64,000 nt of DNA from Pyrobaculum neutrophilum V24Sta (GCF_000019805.1 NC_010525.1:682001-746000); one strand, 5' to 3'. Shown: positions 27,825 to 43,547, counted from the stretch's first letter. Made by a program: numbers and translations. Notes: generated by a model not told the origin, from the letters alone.

Positions 27825-27945
27825 CCCGACAGCAAATACCCCTGTGACATAACATGAAGCGAAAGCCGCGATATTTAAACCTTTACAGCCGCCGGGGAGG
27901 CGTCGATATGCGTGGAACGTTATATATAGCTGGTTTATTGACCCT

Positions 27946-36550: not shown

Positions 36551-36584
36551 AAACCGCTACTAACGGCGGCTTTTTAACACACGG

Positions 36585-36604
36585 CGCAACGTTGAATATT
36601 TAAG
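36585..36604 (+). promoter_or_regulatory. CAACGTT-TATA element, copy 1
   Basis: CGCAACGTTGAATATTTAAG precedes ATG 36625 with the TATA centre 25 bases upstream. The CGCAACGTT part is repeated ahead of two more genes of this locus at the same distance from the TATA box, so it is a candidate operator or extended BRE. Confidence 0.6.
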
Positions 36605-36624
36605 CTCTGGCGTGTGTGGCGCTT

Positions 36625-37203
36625 ATGGTGAGGAGGAGGAACTATAGGCCTCTGGCGGCGGTTGCGGTGTTGGCTGTGGCTGCGCTTGTGGCTGCCACTG
36701 TTACGTTTACCAACGTCACCTACTGGCTTATCAACGCCACTAAGCCGCCTGCCATGAAGTACCCCGGCGCGGACACCGCCGTGGCCGGCGGCCAGTACGT
36801 CAAAGTCAGCTACTACTACGACAGCCAACGCGGCGTAAACATCACGAGGATCTCCATCATAGGCTTCACAGGAGACCCCACCAACTACACCTCCGTCGTG
36901 AAGGTGTGCAACTACTACGGCACCACCCCCATAACAGCCTATCTGGTGTGGGTAGGCCAGGTGGGCACCACCGGCTATGAGGGGTACATAAAGGCCTTCC
37001 TAGTCAAAGGCCCAGACGGCAAAGGCGTAGGCTTCGTAGGCACAACCACATACACCCAGGCAGGCCCCTACACCATCAACCCAGGCGCCTGCATCGACAT
37101 AGGAGCCTACGTCGCAATAGACCCAGCAATACCCCTAAGCCTAGCCAACGGCCAGACAATACTCGGCACATACCAAGTAAACATACAAATGAGCCCACAG
37201 TAA
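36625..37203 (+). CDS. exported pilin-like surface subunit 1
   Basis: A 192-residue secreted or membrane-anchored protein. A basic start (MVRRRNYRP) and one hydrophobic helix (LAAVAVLAVAALVAATVTF) form a signal sequence; then comes FTNVTYWLINATKPP and an all-beta, Thr/Tyr/Gly-rich domain with N-glycosylation sequons. Two cysteines, in KVCNYYG and PGACIDIG, are placed as in the next gene and in 43002-43547, suggesting a disulfide. The end is TYQVNIQMSPQ. The layout fits TasA/camelysin-like fibre subunits such as the bundling pilin of Pyrobaculum, a match from memory of the fold and not from alignment. Start ATG 36625 is chosen over GTG 36616 by promoter spacing. Confidence 0.75.
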   Translation: MVRRRNYRPLAAVAVLAVAALVAATVTFTNVTYWLINATKPPAMKYPGADTAVAGGQYVKVSYYYDSQRGVNITRISIIGFTGDPTNYTSVVKVCNYYGTTPITAYLVWVGQVGTTGYEGYIKAFLVKGPDGKGVGFVGTTTYTQAGPYTINPGACIDIGAYVAIDPAIPLSLANGQTILGTYQVNIQMSPQ

Positions 37204-37333
37204 ACCCCCCTTTTCCCCAACCGCTCACTCCAAATCCCCCCTTTTCTCCCGTCTCAAGCCTTTTTCTGCTGTCATATTGAATCGAATTGGGTGTCGGGGT
37301 TGGAGGGCGTTGCAGGAGGCGGGTTTTGTATGT

Positions 37334-37353
37334 CGCAACGTTAAATATAAATG
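37334..37353 (+). promoter_or_regulatory. CAACGTT-TATA element, copy 2
   Basis: CGCAACGTTAAATATAAATG lies with its TATA centre about 27 bases before ATG 37374. It matches copy 1 over CGCAACGTT and copy 3 over CAACGTTAAATATAAAT, far more than TATA boxes elsewhere in the window share. Confidence 0.6.
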
Positions 37354-37373
37354 CAGTAGAGTTTTTGGGGGTC

Positions 37374-37946
37374 ATGAGTAGCGGGAGAAGGCTGGTGGTG
37401 TTGGCTGTGTTGTTGGGCGCAGCGGCGCTGTTTGCTACAGTGTCTATTCTGAACGTTACATATTGGTATGTAAACACCACGGCGCCTCCGGTTATTAAGT
37501 ACGTGGGCAACGACACCTATGTGATGAACGGCACCTTTGTAAAGGCCAACTGGTACTACGACCCGAACACCGGCCTCAACATCACTAGGGTGTACGTCAC
37601 GGGCGTGCCTGGCGACATTGTAAATATCACAAACGCGTTGAGGGTGTGCAACAGGTACAACGTGCCTGTGAAGATCAGGTTAGCCAGCGTCTCTATGTTG
37701 CAGGACTACTACCCCAACAACGTCTACATTAGGTACATGGCCGTTAAGTTAGTCAGCCCCACCAACTCCACCGACAACCAGGCGGTGATTGTGAACGAAG
37801 CCGTTGTCGACCCCTCGACGGGCTATGTAACTCTGCAGCCAGGCCAGTGCGCCATCTTAGGCGTTGACCTCACCATCGACGCCAACGCTCCATACTACCA
37901 GACCCTCGCCGCCTACCAGATAAACATCGAGAAGGTGCCCCAGTGA
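37374..37946 (+). CDS. exported pilin-like surface subunit 2
   Basis: A 190-residue paralogue of the preceding protein. Signal helix LVVLAVLLGAAALFATVS is followed by ILNVTYWYVNTTAPP, which aligns with FTNVTYWLINATKPP of subunit 1. Conserved positions continue through YYD...G.NITR, VCNRYN and PGQCAILG (the cysteine pair) to the end AAYQINIEKVPQ, against GTYQVNIQMSPQ. By eye close to 40% of positions agree. It is acidic/Asn-rich with several sequons, so probably glycosylated outside the cell. Two such subunits suggest a major and a minor component or alternative fibres. It has its own CAACGTT promoter and overlaps the next gene by four bases. Confidence 0.75.
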   Translation: MSSGRRLVVLAVLLGAAALFATVSILNVTYWYVNTTAPPVIKYVGNDTYVMNGTFVKANWYYDPNTGLNITRVYVTGVPGDIVNITNALRVCNRYNVPVKIRLASVSMLQDYYPNNVYIRYMAVKLVSPTNSTDNQAVIVNEAVVDPSTGYVTLQPGQCAILGVDLTIDANAPYYQTLAAYQINIEKVPQ

Positions 37947-39184
37947 TGAGCCGCGAGGCGGCGGCTAGAACACTCCTCTTTTTCCTCCCCACGCTCGTCT
38001 TCATAATCGCCTTGACGGCCCCCGGGGGCGACTACGCCTTTAGGACGGGCCCCCTGGGGGAGGTCCAGCCGGGCTCCCTCCCCTACTATGTTGCAGTGGA
38101 GAACAAGACCCTGTATCTATACAGCTCCCCCTACGCGCCGTGGCTCTACCCCGGCGCTCTGGAGCTCAAGCTCTTCTACCCGACTAAGGTGGCGGTGTTT
38201 TCCACGTGCGGCGCTGTGGCCGCTGGGGAGCTGGGCGGGCAGCCCGGCGCCTACCCAGTAGACGTGGCTGTGCCCCCGGCGTTTCAGGGGGACTGCTGGG
38301 TCAACTTCACACACCCCTCCGGATGGCGTCAGGCGGTGCTCCTCCGGGTTAGGCTGGTGGACTGGTATCCCGGGGCCTCCGAGAGGGCCGTGGTGGAGCT
38401 AAACGGCTCCGGCTGGCAGTTTCTGCAGGTGGGGCAGGACGGTATGTTGTACATATGGGAGAGGCCGGTGGTTAGGCTGCCGGTGGCCGGCTGCGTCTCT
38501 GTGTACAACAGGTCGGTGCTCCTCACGGAGATCCTCCGCTATGTGGAGGCGGCGCCTAACGTTGTCCCGCCGGTCTACGTACCGTCTGAGGCCGGGGCCG
38601 CTAGATACGGCGCGTTTATACACCTTGAGGGGCCGGCGAAGCTCTACATATACGGCGCCCCCTGCCTCAGCCACAAGCCCTTAAACGCGACGCCGCCGCC
38701 TCCCCTGCGCGGGCGGCTGGGGGTCGTGCTCCCAACGCCGACGGGCCCGGTCTTCGACCAAGCGGAGGTTAACAACACGGCGGTTTTCAAGACGGGGCTT
38801 AGGGTTGTGAACTACAGCGTGGCGCCCGCCAGGGTGTACAAGCTCTACCTCTATACATACAGCACGCCGGTGGGCATGTGGGGCGCCGTGTTGAGGTACA
38901 ACTTCGCCCTAACCGCATACCTCACCACCGAGATCTCCCTACTCTGGCCAGAGGGGGCGCGGTCTGTGGAGAAGAGGGGCGACGTCTGGGCGATACACAC
39001 AGGCGGCGCGACCTACTGGGTCTACAGCAGAGCGCCGCCTCGCACAATCTGCGAGCCGCCCTGCGGAGTGCCGGCTGGCTGGGCGGACCCCATCTACGTC
39101 GTGGTGGATCCCACAGGCCGCTGGGGCGGCTGGCCAAGCGTTTTGTCGGTCAAGAGGGAGGTTCTGCAGCCGTGGAGACCGTAA
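37943..39184 (+). CDS. large exported protein of the surface locus
   Basis: A 413-residue protein of unknown family with an N-terminal signal/anchor (LLFFLPTLVFIIALTAPGG) and an extracellular, beta-rich body containing many Tyr, Pro and Val, six or so sequons, and several cysteines. I see no C-terminal membrane helix, so it is either secreted or held by the N-terminal helix. The final third contains two cysteines in a row of close spacing (TICEPPCGVP). It is translationally coupled to subunit 2 (ATGA overlap). It may be an assembly, cap or anchoring protein of the fibre; this is inference from context only. Confidence 0.7.
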   Translation: MMSREAAARTLLFFLPTLVFIIALTAPGGDYAFRTGPLGEVQPGSLPYYVAVENKTLYLYSSPYAPWLYPGALELKLFYPTKVAVFSTCGAVAAGELGGQPGAYPVDVAVPPAFQGDCWVNFTHPSGWRQAVLLRVRLVDWYPGASERAVVELNGSGWQFLQVGQDGMLYIWERPVVRLPVAGCVSVYNRSVLLTEILRYVEAAPNVVPPVYVPSEAGAARYGAFIHLEGPAKLYIYGAPCLSHKPLNATPPPPLRGRLGVVLPTPTGPVFDQAEVNNTAVFKTGLRVVNYSVAPARVYKLYLYTYSTPVGMWGAVLRYNFALTAYLTTEISLLWPEGARSVEKRGDVWAIHTGGATYWVYSRAPPRTICEPPCGVPAGWADPIYVVVDPTGRWGGWPSVLSVKREVLQPWRP

Positions 39185-39213
39185 AACATTTTTGGGGGGA
39201 CCCCCGCAGACCT

Positions 39214-39615
39214 ATGAATTGGGTTGCCCTCCTCGTCGGCGTGGCGGCCGGCATGGCCGTGGCCTTCGGCAGGGTATACGCCGAGAGGGCGGTGGCTAGG
39301 CACTTCGGCCTGGTGCCTCAGTTGCTTTTCAAACATAGAGACGTGCTTGTGCCCTTCTTGGTGTTGGCCACCGCCGCCAACATATACGCCGTGTGGATCA
39401 CCGTGGCGTACGGCGGTATCTCCGCCTGGAGGCTCTCGGCCCTCGTCGGCATGGGGCTTCTAGTCGCGGCGCAGATGATGCAGCTCCACATTGCTCTACG
39501 CCCCAGTAGGCATGACCTGCAGCTGGCGTTGCTGTCGTGTGCGCCGTATGTATACCTCTTCGCACTTTATATAGCAGCCCTGGCCACGGGGAGGTACAGC
39601 CTCTGGCTGTTTTAG
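39214..39615 (+). CDS. polytopic membrane protein of the surface locus
   Basis: A 133-residue protein with about four hydrophobic helices (VALLVGVAAGMAVAF, VLVPFLVLATAANIYAVWI, LVGMGLLVAAQMMQ, LLSCAPYVYLFALYIAAL). No family recognised and no obvious catalytic Ser/Lys pair of a signal peptidase. ATG 39214 lies 29 bases after the preceding stop; the next gene starts one base after its TAG, so it belongs to the same unit. A platform or anchoring role is a guess. Confidence 0.65.
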   Translation: MNWVALLVGVAAGMAVAFGRVYAERAVARHFGLVPQLLFKHRDVLVPFLVLATAANIYAVWITVAYGGISAWRLSALVGMGLLVAAQMMQLHIALRPSRHDLQLALLSCAPYVYLFALYIAALATGRYSLWLF

Positions 39616-39616
39616 C

Positions 39617-39979
39617 ATGAACTTCGCAGAGACGATGCTGATCTCGGCGGCGGGGGGCGCCATAGCGGCGCTGGCCCCCCTGGTGTACATCATGTACTAC
39701 GGCAGGCCCACCACCTTCACCGTGTGGACCGGCGCCGTCGTGTCCTTCATAGGCGGCTTCATCTTCACGCTCCTCGCCGCCCAGTGGCCCCTCTTCTACG
39801 CCAGATTTACATACCTACTAGCCCTCGCCCTCCTCCTCACCTCCATAGCCTACACCTACTGGGGGATGTACAGGAGGAGGTGGTTCGCGTACCTCTTCGC
39901 CGCGGCGGCGTGGATATACATAATACTGCTGGCGCTGGTGGCTAAGGCCCTCGGCCTAGGCGACCCCTTCATCGCCTAA
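39617..39979 (+). CDS. small four-helix membrane protein of the surface locus
   Basis: A 120-residue membrane protein with about four helices (MLISAAGGAIAALAPLVYI, VVSFIGGFIFTLLAAQ, YLLALALLLTSIAYTY, YLFAAAAWIYIILLALVAKAL) separated by short polar loops such as GMYRRRW. Function unknown. It follows the previous membrane gene by one base. The promoter of the regulator gene begins at its stop codon. Confidence 0.65.
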   Translation: MNFAETMLISAAGGAIAALAPLVYIMYYGRPTTFTVWTGAVVSFIGGFIFTLLAAQWPLFYARFTYLLALALLLTSIAYTYWGMYRRRWFAYLFAAAAWIYIILLALVAKALGLGDPFIA

Positions 39980-39998
39980 CAACGTTAAATATAAATTG
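39980..39998 (+). promoter_or_regulatory. CAACGTT-TATA element, copy 3
   Basis: CAACGTTAAATATAAATTG directly follows the stop of the membrane gene and precedes the regulator gene at 40011, with the TATA centre about 23 bases before GTG 40011. It is identical over 17 bases to copy 2 (37336-37352). Confidence 0.6.
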
Positions 39999-40010
39999 TG
40001 GGACGGTACG

Positions 40011-40682
40011 GTGGATGTGAACATCACAGTGTTCCTCGTCCTTGCGCCGCTCGCCGCCTGGATGTACCCAGTGTACGTGCCGCCTAACTCCACCGCCTAT
40101 ATACACGCGGATCTGCCCCCAGCGCTCTGCAACGTGACCGGCACACTCCAGATAGACAAGCCCACGACTGTGGCCTGCGTAAACACGGCGCTACAGCCGG
40201 CCCCCCTCAGGGGGAGCCTCTCCGTCGAGTACCCCACACCGCCGCCGCAGCCTCCGCCCCCAGCGCCCGAGGCGCCTATAGTGGCCGTAGCCGCCGGGGC
40301 CGCGGCGGCCGCCGGATTAAGCCACCTGGCGAGCAACAGGAGGGAGTTGCTGGCCGCCCCCGTGGTGGCCATAGCCGCGAGGGTGAAGAGGGCCGTCGCG
40401 GAGGACCCGGCGCGGAGGGAGATACTAAACGTCGTGGAGAAGATGGGCGCCGCCACCCTCTCCCAGATAGCAAAGGCCACGGGAAGGGGCTGGGGGGCTG
40501 TGCAGTGGCACCTCTACGTCCTCGAGCGGGAGGGGAGGGTTAGGTCTGTGAGGATCGGGCCCTTCACCTACTACTACGTCAACCCGAGAGCCGCCGCGGA
40601 GGTCATCCTATCCTCGGTCGACCCGGAGACCCTCTCGCCCGAGGATAGAGAAAAGCTTGATCTAATGGCCTCCTCGCTATGA
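40011..40682 (+). CDS. membrane-anchored winged-helix regulator with an external domain
   Basis: A 223-residue protein with an outside-in layout: an N-terminal hydrophobic segment (ITVFLVLAPLAAWMYP), an external region of about 60 residues with sequons and two cysteines, a proline linker (PTPPPQPPPPAPEAP), a membrane helix (IVAVAAGAAAAAGL), and a cytoplasmic winged helix. The last has REILNVVEKMGAATLSQIAK, recognition region GWGAVQWHLYVLEREG and wing VRSVRIGPFTYYYVN. It closely resembles the soluble regulator at 7767-8162. It could sense the fibre or surface state and control the CAACGTT promoters, one of which is its own. GTG 40011 is chosen by TATA spacing; the next gene overlaps by four bases. 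Confidence 0.8.
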   Translation: MDVNITVFLVLAPLAAWMYPVYVPPNSTAYIHADLPPALCNVTGTLQIDKPTTVACVNTALQPAPLRGSLSVEYPTPPPQPPPPAPEAPIVAVAAGAAAAAGLSHLASNRRELLAAPVVAIAARVKRAVAEDPARREILNVVEKMGAATLSQIAKATGRGWGAVQWHLYVLEREGRVRSVRIGPFTYYYVNPRAAAEVILSSVDPETLSPEDREKLDLMASSL

Positions 40683-43000
40683 GGTATGCCGCCCTCCTGG
40701 CTCTGCTGGGCGCCTTGGCGGCTTTGGCAGTCCTCTCCTTTTTAAACGTGGTGCAGACCGCCGTAAACGCCTCTCTTGCACCGGTCGCCAAGGGGCTAAA
40801 CGGCTCGGTCTACCCCCTGGCGAAGGCTTGGTACAGCTACGCCGGCTTCTACAACGTGACGTACTACTACATGAGGTTTGTCCCTGGGTGGCCCGAGCTG
40901 TACACCGTAGGCCTATTCGCGCCGAGGCAGACCGGCTGGCAGAGCTGGCTGGAGGCCGTGGGGAGGTCGGGCACTGGGCAGTACGCCATAGCCCTAGGCG
41001 GCCAGGTGCAGATAACCCAGAGCCAGAACTCGGGCCCCCCCGTGGCCATAAGCCAAAACACGCCTCTCCAGTGGCAGACCCTCGCCACCCAGCGCTACTC
41101 GGTCCTAGCCCGCGCCTGGTTCAGACAAGGGGGAATAACCGCCGTCCAGCTGGTCAACTTCACAGCAGAGCCGATGTCTAAGCTCTACAGCCAGACCTTC
41201 TCATGCGGCACTACGACGTATGTGGAGCAGTTTAACTACTGTACAACGCAGACCTTCTCCTACAGCGACAGCTTCAGCTACACGACCCTGCCCCCCTACA
41301 TCACCAAATACCTAAACTACGACCCCACAACCGTCACGGTACCTCCCGTCTCAATAGACACGACAAACAGCCCCACAACCCCCCCAAGCCTCAAGACGCA
41401 GGTGGACGCAAAACGGACTGGCGCGGGTGTAGTAGCCGCTGTGTACAACACGGCGGCGAGGTGGGGCTTGATACAGTCCTACGGCACCACAGTCGCCGTA
41501 AGCCTAAGGTACCAGAGGGATACCGTAGTCGCAACTGATACACAAAATAACGTTGCATACATATCTATAGCGGTGGATAGAGACGGCGATGGGAGACCAG
41601 ATGTGGAGCTTATATACTACTACTACGATATAGCCGTCAGATATTCTGGTGCAATCTATTCGGTGTTTGTAAACCCGGGGGCCTACCTCGCCAGTGTGTC
41701 GTCTACCGGCGGTTTAACATATGCGGCTGGCGTGTCGAATGGCACTACTTACTACTTCTACCGCGTGGGCTCCATGTCGTCTGGCCAAACCTACAGATTT
41801 AGTAGAACGCTGGCTGTCAGCGGCTACATAGTGGCCGTAGCCTTCGTCGTAGTTGACGCCGCTTACTACGCCGATGGCTCCCCCGCCGGCGATTTCTGGG
41901 TGTGGTGGGACGACTTTGGGATAAGCGGGACGGGGACTGTCTGTAGCCTGCCGGGCAACGTCGCCGTGTACACCAGAGGCTACAACTACACCCAGGTGTA
42001 TATAGCCCCCGGCGTGGGGAACCCAGCGCCTTCTCTAGTTACTGAGGTGGACGCCTACGGCGCCTCCGGCAACCCCCAGACGGATTGGGGAGCCGCCATC
42101 GCGGTCTACAGGCTGGCTCAGCCCGTCCCAGCCCTCGGCACCTCAGTCTCCGTCTGGGGGCTCTACCAGAAGGATGCCAACGACCTCTCTAACAACGTGG
42201 CGTATGTCTCCATCGGCGTCGACGCCAACGGAGATGGCCAGGTGGATAAGGAATACATCCTCTACAGAAGCGACACGGGAGGAGGCCCCGGCGCCATAGT
42301 GTCGGCCTTCTTCAAAGACGCAAGTGGAAACCCAGTCTACGTATGTACAGTAGACACCACCGGCGCCTGCGCCACCACAGACCCCCGTTTCGTCGTCGTA
42401 AACCTCGGCGCTATGACAAGCGGCAACAGCTACACCTGGAGCTACACCCTAAACGACCAAGGCGCGGTGGTGGCCATAGCCCTAGCCGTCACAGACGGCA
42501 GCTACTACGGCGAAGGATACAGCGGCGACGTCTGGGTGTACTGGGATAACCTGCAGCTTCAATACAGCGCGTGTCCTCTCCCCGCCGGCTGGAGCGTCTC
42601 GGGCGCCTACGCCTGGCAGTCGTATAGCTACCTCCTGGCCTCTGGGAGCGTTGCTGTATACATGGGGCTCGTCGCCGGTGGGCTTACCTACGTGTCTAAC
42701 TTCACGGGGGTTGGGGCCTACGCGGTTTTTGACTCCTCTCTCACGCCGATTTTCGGCGTCTCCATAAGCGGTAGTAGCTTCTCAGCCCTCTGCGGCTCCT
42801 CTGCCGTCTCGCTCGGCTCTCTGCCGTCGGCTGCGTGGGTCGAGCTTAGGCCTCTCTCGGGGCTAGGCGACATAATCGTGAGAGACCAGTACGGAAACAT
42901 CCTAGCTAGATACGGTTGCCCCTACACCGCGGCGCCGCAGTACATAGGGTACAAAACCACAAACACCCTCAAAATATACAACATAACAGCGCTGGGCTAA
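40679..43000 (+). CDS. 773-residue repeat-containing surface protein
   Basis: Probably an adhesin, tip or scaffold protein of the fibre. The signal helix (ALLALLGALAALAVLSF) is followed by LNVVQTAVNASLAP, which mirrors the FxNVTYWxxNATxPP start of the two small subunits. The body contains two long repeats of about 200 residues, each with N-NVAYISIAVDRDGDG or NNVAYVSIGVDANGDG and ending WVWWDDFGI or WVYWDNLQL. The Asp-rich loops DRDGDGRPD and DANGDGQVD look like calcium-binding sites. A third C-terminal segment lacks the loop. Between about 41500 and 41900 the DNA is visibly richer in A/T than the rest of the gene. Start ATG 40679 overlaps the regulator by four bases. Confidence 0.82.
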   Translation: MRYAALLALLGALAALAVLSFLNVVQTAVNASLAPVAKGLNGSVYPLAKAWYSYAGFYNVTYYYMRFVPGWPELYTVGLFAPRQTGWQSWLEAVGRSGTGQYAIALGGQVQITQSQNSGPPVAISQNTPLQWQTLATQRYSVLARAWFRQGGITAVQLVNFTAEPMSKLYSQTFSCGTTTYVEQFNYCTTQTFSYSDSFSYTTLPPYITKYLNYDPTTVTVPPVSIDTTNSPTTPPSLKTQVDAKRTGAGVVAAVYNTAARWGLIQSYGTTVAVSLRYQRDTVVATDTQNNVAYISIAVDRDGDGRPDVELIYYYYDIAVRYSGAIYSVFVNPGAYLASVSSTGGLTYAAGVSNGTTYYFYRVGSMSSGQTYRFSRTLAVSGYIVAVAFVVVDAAYYADGSPAGDFWVWWDDFGISGTGTVCSLPGNVAVYTRGYNYTQVYIAPGVGNPAPSLVTEVDAYGASGNPQTDWGAAIAVYRLAQPVPALGTSVSVWGLYQKDANDLSNNVAYVSIGVDANGDGQVDKEYILYRSDTGGGPGAIVSAFFKDASGNPVYVCTVDTTGACATTDPRFVVVNLGAMTSGNSYTWSYTLNDQGAVVAIALAVTDGSYYGEGYSGDVWVYWDNLQLQYSACPLPAGWSVSGAYAWQSYSYLLASGSVAVYMGLVAGGLTYVSNFTGVGAYAVFDSSLTPIFGVSISGSSFSALCGSSAVSLGSLPSAAWVELRPLSGLGDIIVRDQYGNILARYGCPYTAAPQYIGYKTTNTLKIYNITALG

Positions 43001-43001
43001 C

Positions 43002-43547
43002 ATGGGAGCAGAAAAGACGCCGCAGGTCCAGGAGATGAGGCAACAAGCCGAGGAGGTCGAGGAGAGGAGGCGGGGCGCCGTGTTGATCATACTAGGCCTG
43101 GCGGCCCTCCTGGGGGCCTTCTGGGGCGGCCTGACGTTTCTGCCCGCCGCGGCGGGTGGGGGCGCGGGCGTCGGCGGCGTTGGGCCCGAGGCTGTGGGGG
43201 TGGGCAACGTGGTGTTGGTTGGGTTCAACGGGACTCAGAGGTTTGTGCTTTGGGCTCCTCCTGGGTCCGTGGTGGTTTGGGATGTGGCTTTCTGCAACGT
43301 GGCAGATGGCGACGTGGTGGCCTCTGTGAAGCTTGTCGATCTGCCTCGGGAGTTTAGGCGTTTTAGGTTCTATGTGAACGGGAGTTGGTTTGGGTGGGAT
43401 GGGGTTAATATGACTGGGTGGAGCGGCGTCTTCCGCCGGGGCTTGTGTCTGCCGGGGAGGCTGGAGGTTCTGGTGGATGGCCGGGCGGCGCCCGGCGGGG
43501 TTTACGCGGCTAGGGCTCAAGTCGAGGCGAGGCCGCTAGGCGACTAG
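43002..43547 (+). CDS. membrane-anchored pilin-like protein 3
   Basis: A 181-residue protein with a 25-residue charged cytoplasmic N-terminus (QEMRQQAEEVEERRRG, helical), one membrane helix (AVLIILGLAALLGAFWGGLTF), a Gly-rich linker, and an external beta-rich domain. The external part contains DVAFCNVADGDVVASVKLVDLP and RRGLCLPGRLEV, so its two cysteines fall in the same places as KVCNYYG/PGACIDIG of subunit 1. It is therefore a diverged member of the same family, but permanently anchored: a possible base or anchor subunit. Its 3' end overlaps the convergent aroD gene by 12 bases. Starts one base after the 773-residue gene. Confidence 0.72.
   Translation: MGAEKTPQVQEMRQQAEEVEERRRGAVLIILGLAALLGAFWGGLTFLPAAAGGGAGVGGVGPEAVGVGNVVLVGFNGTQRFVLWAPPGSVVVWDVAFCNVADGDVVASVKLVDLPREFRRFRFYVNGSWFGWDGVNMTGWSGVFRRGLCLPGRLEVLVDGRAAPGGVYAARAQVEARPLGD

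Follow-up and report, generated by a model that had tools for sequence, protein, structure and literature searches.

In Sulfolobales, the Ara-box (AACATGTT) is a promoter palindrome that is needed for activity, occurs regulon-wide and has been proposed as the site of an activator (PMC7264815). Pilus promoters of Sulfolobus acidocaldarius carry the UV-inducible ups hexamer A(N)TTTC at -39 to -44, above a weak BRE (PMC5817253), and in the Methanococcus fla promoter the surface-appendage activator EarA, which may recruit TFB, uses 6-bp sites directly above a weak BRE (PMC5512572). Two membrane-bound one-component regulators of crenarchaeal surface appendages, ArnR and ArnR1, have been described in Sulfolobus (PMC6396743), and the broader class of transmembrane transcription regulators (TTRs) is defined by a predicted DNA-binding domain plus at least one transmembrane (TM) region (PMC10269533). 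For archaeal bundling pili, a small search of the open literature found no described operator or regulator.

Here we analyze a promoter element in a 64-kb stretch of the genome of the hot-spring archaeon Pyrobaculum neutrophilum V24Sta (the window, meaning the whole stretch of DNA that was analyzed). Like the Ara-box, it is a short palindrome in archaeal promoters that is common to several genes; unlike the Ara-box/XylR system, its sequence is AACGTT rather than AACATGTT, it stands before pilus genes and it touches the BRE, and XylR itself works in the uptake and use of pentoses, with no membrane anchor described for it. The ups hexamer is non-palindromic and is associated with 214 genes in its genome, whereas we find four exact sites, located at -38 to -32. 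EarA has four sites in one promoter, in contrast to a single site per promoter spread over several units here. ArnR consists of an N-terminal HTH, a HAMP domain and two C-terminal TM helices (PMC6396743); the candidate regulator in our locus has the opposite domain order, with an N-terminal outside domain, one TM helix and a C-terminal winged helix-turn-helix (wHTH), and so lacks the ArnR/ArnR1 architecture. ArnR boxes are 15-bp TCGAC-N5-GTCGA sequences lying between -43 and -84 (PMC6396743), as against -38 to -32 for our element, and they are absent from the three promoter sequences as read.

The first gene of the locus, abpA (36625-37203, 192 aa; all genes and element copies of the locus are on the plus strand), encodes a bundling-pilus pilin that matches AbpA of Pyrobaculum calidifontis (PDB 7ueg, E=3.1e-61 over residues 4-193), and alignment with 7ueg set its start codon. 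By sequence homology, the locus encodes archaeal bundling pili and is orthologous to the AbpA locus. It continues with pil2 (37374-37946), a second AbpA-like pilin of 190 aa that is 40% identical to abpA; p413 (37943-39184), a 413-aa secreted-looking protein in one unit with pil2; two small membrane proteins of 133 and 120 aa (tm133 and tm120, 39214-39979), kept in 12 of the 13 abp loci compared; a putative membrane-anchored regulator (reg, 40017-40682, with a possible alternative start at 40011); adh773 (40679-43000), a 773-aa secreted repetitive protein whose gene overlaps that of the regulator; and p181 (43002-43547), a 181-aa membrane protein that is the last gene of the locus. The order abpA-(pil2)-p413-tm133-tm120-reg-adh773 is found in most of the 13 loci, is partial in G007 and G008, and recurs in both Pyrobaculum and a second genus. 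At the very edge of the window, positions 1-55 match the Rfam family Pyrobac-1 sRNA.

The original prediction proposed that three genes of this locus share an AACGTT palindrome at a fixed distance from the TATA box, and reading the window directly we found each of its three sequences in place, with the common form CAACGTT-RAATATWWA at 36587, 37336 and 39980 (window positions). The distance from AACGTT to TATA is equal in all three copies, copies 2 and 3 are the same across 17 bases (CAACGTTAAATATAAAT), and the closest other site, before tyrS at 27916 (AACGTTATATATAG), is present without the flanks, all as predicted. Copy 1 (ACGGCG+CAACGTTGAATATTTA, 36581-36602) lies in the abpA promoter and copy 2 (CAACGTTAAATATAAA, 37336-37351) before pil2, with the first C of the element 38 nt before ATG 36625 and ATG 37374, respectively. 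Copy 3 (CAACGTTAAATATAAA, 39980-39995) begins directly after the stop codon of the upstream gene and heads the regulator unit, 37 nt before GTG 40017; relatives favor this GTG as the regulator start, and with it the three promoters agree in having the element at -37/-38. The window contains three exact matches to CAACGTTRAATATWWA versus none in 100 dinucleotide shuffles, and ten matches to AACGTTRAATAT at two or fewer mismatches versus 1.4 expected. The three-copy observation is thus confirmed as correct and well above chance. A fourth, degenerate element in the window (GACCGTAAAACATTTT, 39177-39192) precedes the gene at 39214 and is better kept in relatives, where it reads AAACGCAAAATATTTA in G006 and G008. 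The ACGGC[GA]C flank of copy 1 is common to the abpA promoters of G001, G002, G003, G006 and G009 and is also part of the promoter of a soluble regulator paralogue; abpA-type promoters in six Pyrobaculum genomes read ACGGC[GA]CAACGTTGAAT.

Pattern searches of the whole 1.77-Mb genome found four exact matches to CAACGTTNAATATWWA, all before abp genes, none with one mismatch, and no more with two mismatches than in a reversed control. The fourth copy precedes a second abpA gene (G000:C1:1471921-1472533, L004) that is 99% identical to the first and lies in a neighborhood unrelated to the abp locus. The duplicated block, in which the two copies differ by three mismatches, begins 7 nt above the element and extends as far as the stop codon, so that the element was carried along in the abpA duplication; because this duplicate is recent, we rejected the fourth copy as independent evidence. 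We also scanned 1.54 Mb of the genome with a position weight matrix (PWM), the remaining ~13% being covered by pattern searches only. The top PWM hits, with scores of 26.1-34.6, are abpA, its copy, pil2, the gene of the soluble wHTH paralogue and reg, followed by a 47-aa gene at 24.8; the control maximum was 21.1. Two marginal sites score 21.3, one at a related small gene and the other without a start codon in position. No housekeeping gene appears among hits above 22 in the 1.54 Mb, and the same holds down to the control maximum (21.1) with the sole exception of the 21.3 site without a start codon in position. Some of these sites were used to train the PWM, so the order of the hits is not independent; that no housekeeping gene is among them is still informative.

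The element spans about -38 to -32 relative to the start codons, a promoter geometry that appears to be leaderless, and at this position it adjoins the BRE/TATA region and overlaps the BRE in part. We compared it with 97 background promoters from this genome, picked by an AT-rich -32 to -23 region; these have A from -32 to -30 and a TATA box of the TTTWAAA type from -28 to -22, and favor no base above -33. No preference for ACG at -38 to -33 was seen in sampled promoters of either G000 or G015. With sampled promoters of two genomes lacking it, the element is not a general promoter form, a possibility that the 1.54-Mb PWM scan also rules out; the pattern that would have undermined the original prediction, a motif before many housekeeping genes, was seen neither in the scan nor in the sampled promoters. 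Its suggestion that the element might simply be an extended BRE fails, as general promoters in the two genomes show only an AAA BRE and nothing above -33. AACGTTG-type abpA promoters of Pyrobaculum carry G at -31, a base found there in only 1-2% of sampled promoters, which suggests that their BRE is sub-optimal.

Across 13 abp loci, found in 13 genomes of the family, the element stands at the head of the units that begin with abpA, pil2, the regulator gene and, in some cases, tm133. A strict rule detects an ACG-type element before abpA in 11 of 12 loci, before reg in 11 of 13 and before tm133 in 6 of 12, and misses recognizable versions at abpA of G010 and at reg of G007 and G002; the pil2 row, which repeats the abpA row in single-pilin genomes, was left out of these counts. 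At the unit-internal genes p413, tm120, adh773 and p181 it is found in 0 of 46 cases over the 13 loci, with p413 and adh773 each at 0 of 13. The element stays with its gene where abpA is inverted relative to pil2 (G003, G009), and stays with reg despite an MNT-HEPN-like module between tm120 and reg (G001, G003, G007, G009). In a decayed locus of one Pyrobaculum (G004, L110), reg is gone, abpA is truncated, the last gene is broken and the element has mutated to CAATGTTGACTATTTA. The second genus, to which Thermoproteus sp. UBA157 belongs, has TACGCA or TACGTA as its element. Only ACG-Y-W is therefore conserved between the genera, AACGTT being the palindromic version seen in Pyrobaculum, and we ruled out the palindrome as what defines the element. 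The analysis directly shows the element itself, how specific it is, how it is placed relative to start codons, that it is conserved and that it occurs only at unit heads. Inverted-repeat arms around abpA promoters were noticed by eye in the window alone, and we do not claim them as conserved. The module next to reg resembles an MNT nucleotidyltransferase/HEPN-like toxin-antitoxin pair, assigned by eye and partly frame-shifted, and lies just before the regulator promoter in four species (L092, L094, L097, L099).

Alignment and structure prediction give the regulator an N-terminal beta-rich extracytoplasmic domain with two invariant cysteines in the alignment, a Pro-rich linker and a single TM helix, followed by an ArsR-like winged helix at the C-terminus. 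The predicted model (mean pLDDT 67) places the wHTH at residues 131-187 and a helix at 89-104, and is good at the winged helix and poor at the membrane part. With its ArsR-like hits the protein falls within the TTR definition, its TM part being low-confidence in the model. Matches at E<=1e-20 occur in 15 of 45 genomes of the order, all in two genera of its family; among these 15, the G004 match is to the soluble paralogue only. This paralogue is a 79-aa winged-helix protein with nearly the same recognition helix as the regulator (WGxxQWHLYVLER). Its promoter carries a related extended element, ACGGCGCTACGCAA, in nine Pyrobaculum genomes, in which the promoter is ultraconserved (ACGGCGCTACGCAARATTTTTTAAATTGGAT...ACGCCGT); a close variant, CTACGGAAG, is found in G014 and G010. 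Inverted-repeat arms, ACGGCG...CGCCGT, surround the core promoter of this gene, and the abpA-type and soluble-paralogue promoter classes have ACGGCRCWACGYWRAAT in common. The shared recognition helix, together with a related element at the paralogue's own promoter, supports a winged-helix protein as the most likely binder. A second membrane wHTH regulator, regB, is ~60% identical and occurs in another cluster (L105, L106, L107, L108), where its neighbors include a ParA/MinD-like ATPase and an MglA-like GTPase. The regB paralogues have the same recognition helix, but their own promoters carry CACCACAA without ACG. A multi-copy family of ~50-aa proteins (..HVLGVHAYSFVRYGVDPHDDVETAVKKLEAKAPHLA..), at G000:C1 positions 1055437, 1092450, 1140883, 547844, 1714320 and 564430, has promoters resembling that of the soluble wHTH gene, with CGSCGCTACGGAGSRTTTTTTA in most and with flanking arms ACGSCG...CGSCGT showing a compensated G/C swap.

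A related element extends beyond the abp locus, making the original interpretation of a locus-specific element too narrow: the full form is indeed confined to the locus plus the duplicated pilin, whereas related ACG elements lie outside it. We found 15 exact matches to WACGYAAARTATWTA in relatives versus none in the reversed control. Some are abp sites; others precede genes for T4-pilin-like proteins, one mscS gene, one gene for a KaiC-like ATPase and, in three genomes, the gene of a secreted beta-propeller-like protein, mostly with a start codon 36-38 nt downstream. Promoters of ATPase orthologues have CGY at the same position in 10 of 10 cases, as do most Pyrobaculum mscS promoters, both families having been chosen because one member had a match, which introduces selection bias. 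With that bias noted, the outside elements are a lead to a possible surface regulon. One-mismatch matches across the family were considered as extra regulon members and rejected, as most are near the reversed-control level in Pyrobaculum. Two genomes, G012 (only 76% complete) and G014, have no membrane regulator, yet in both AACGTAAAATATATA stands upstream of genes for secreted or pilin-like proteins; the related element must therefore be read by a different factor in these genomes. Type IV pilin-like genes of the second genus are preceded by related ACG elements, as is a gene for a secreted beta-propeller-like protein (L148, L155, L202 in G014, L195 in G015, L146, L153, L157).

With moderate confidence, we propose that the element is an operator coordinating the abp units, most likely bound by the winged-helix regulator or its paralogues and most likely activating, with autofeedback. 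The winged-helix domain of the 40017-40682 regulator, or of a close paralogue, would bind through the ACG core, and the bound protein would help TFB/TBP engage the sub-optimal BRE; the regulator would also feed back on its own gene, and autoregulation of this kind is consistent with the regulator unit beginning with an element in almost every relative. We infer the identity of the binder, activation over repression, and an extracellular signal. Two observations argue against the regulator as sole binder, namely the element in G012 and G014, which lack it, and the regB promoters without ACG; for the same reasons strict co-evolution of regulator and operator is not clean, and we rejected it as proof of the binder. 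ArsR proteins usually repress, and a repressor could make equal use of a site that overlaps the BRE. In a tentative alternative, the winged-helix protein bound over the BRE edge would block TFB until an extracellular cue released it, as might be expected from the ArsR-type fold of the DNA-binding domain, from an element that touches the BRE, and from the ACGGCG...CGCCGT arms in the soluble paralogue promoter, an arrangement often seen in autorepressed genes. Against repression, the G at -31 of abpA in an otherwise A-rich BRE suggests a weak promoter that needs help, and the archaeal sites characterized so far immediately above a BRE mostly belong to activators (PMC5512572, PMC5817253). We prefer activation because characterized sites in this position mostly activate or are proposed to: recruitment of TFB just above a weak BRE is established or proposed for EarA and TFB-RF1 (PMC5512572) and for the Ara-box factor (PMC7264815), and the ups hexamer is another site in this position working, or proposed to work, in this way (PMC5817253).

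We think it unlikely that the element is instead a variant BRE for an alternative TFB, marking a class of surface-gene promoters with no dedicated repressor or activator. The fixed distance to TATA would suit such a role, as would the occurrence of related elements across the family at genes for pilins, secreted proteins, MscS and ATPases, including in genomes without the regulator; yet core and flank (ACGGCRC) reach -44, past a 6-bp BRE, and the normal A-rich BRE positions are still recognizable below the element. The element also stands before two wHTH genes that are paralogues of each other, which fits specific autoregulation better. It is very unlikely that the copies are leftovers of recent promoter duplication with no regulatory role. 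One copy did arise with a duplicated abpA gene and its promoter, and abpA and pil2 are paralogues, but the regulator is unrelated to the pilins and nonetheless has the element at its promoter in nearly all relatives, and none of the 46 internal genes has one. Conservation across two genera while the surrounding sequence diverges already contradicts this explanation.

Returning to an operator read by winged-helix proteins, a wider version that we regard as possible rather than probable is that a family of such regulators in the Thermoproteaceae, with a membrane form that has an outside sensor and a soluble, ultraconserved form, read ACGGCRCWACGYW by the BRE, control their own genes and govern a surface regulon of bundling pili, type IV pilins, a mechanosensitive channel and a KaiC-like ATPase. 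If this is true, the membrane form would pass information on pilus or envelope state straight to the promoter. A short, exact and genome-unique element together with one candidate regulator offers a small, testable regulon for the biofilm pili of a hyperthermophile, and the wider ACG element gives a handle on the co-regulation of surface structures in an order with little promoter work.
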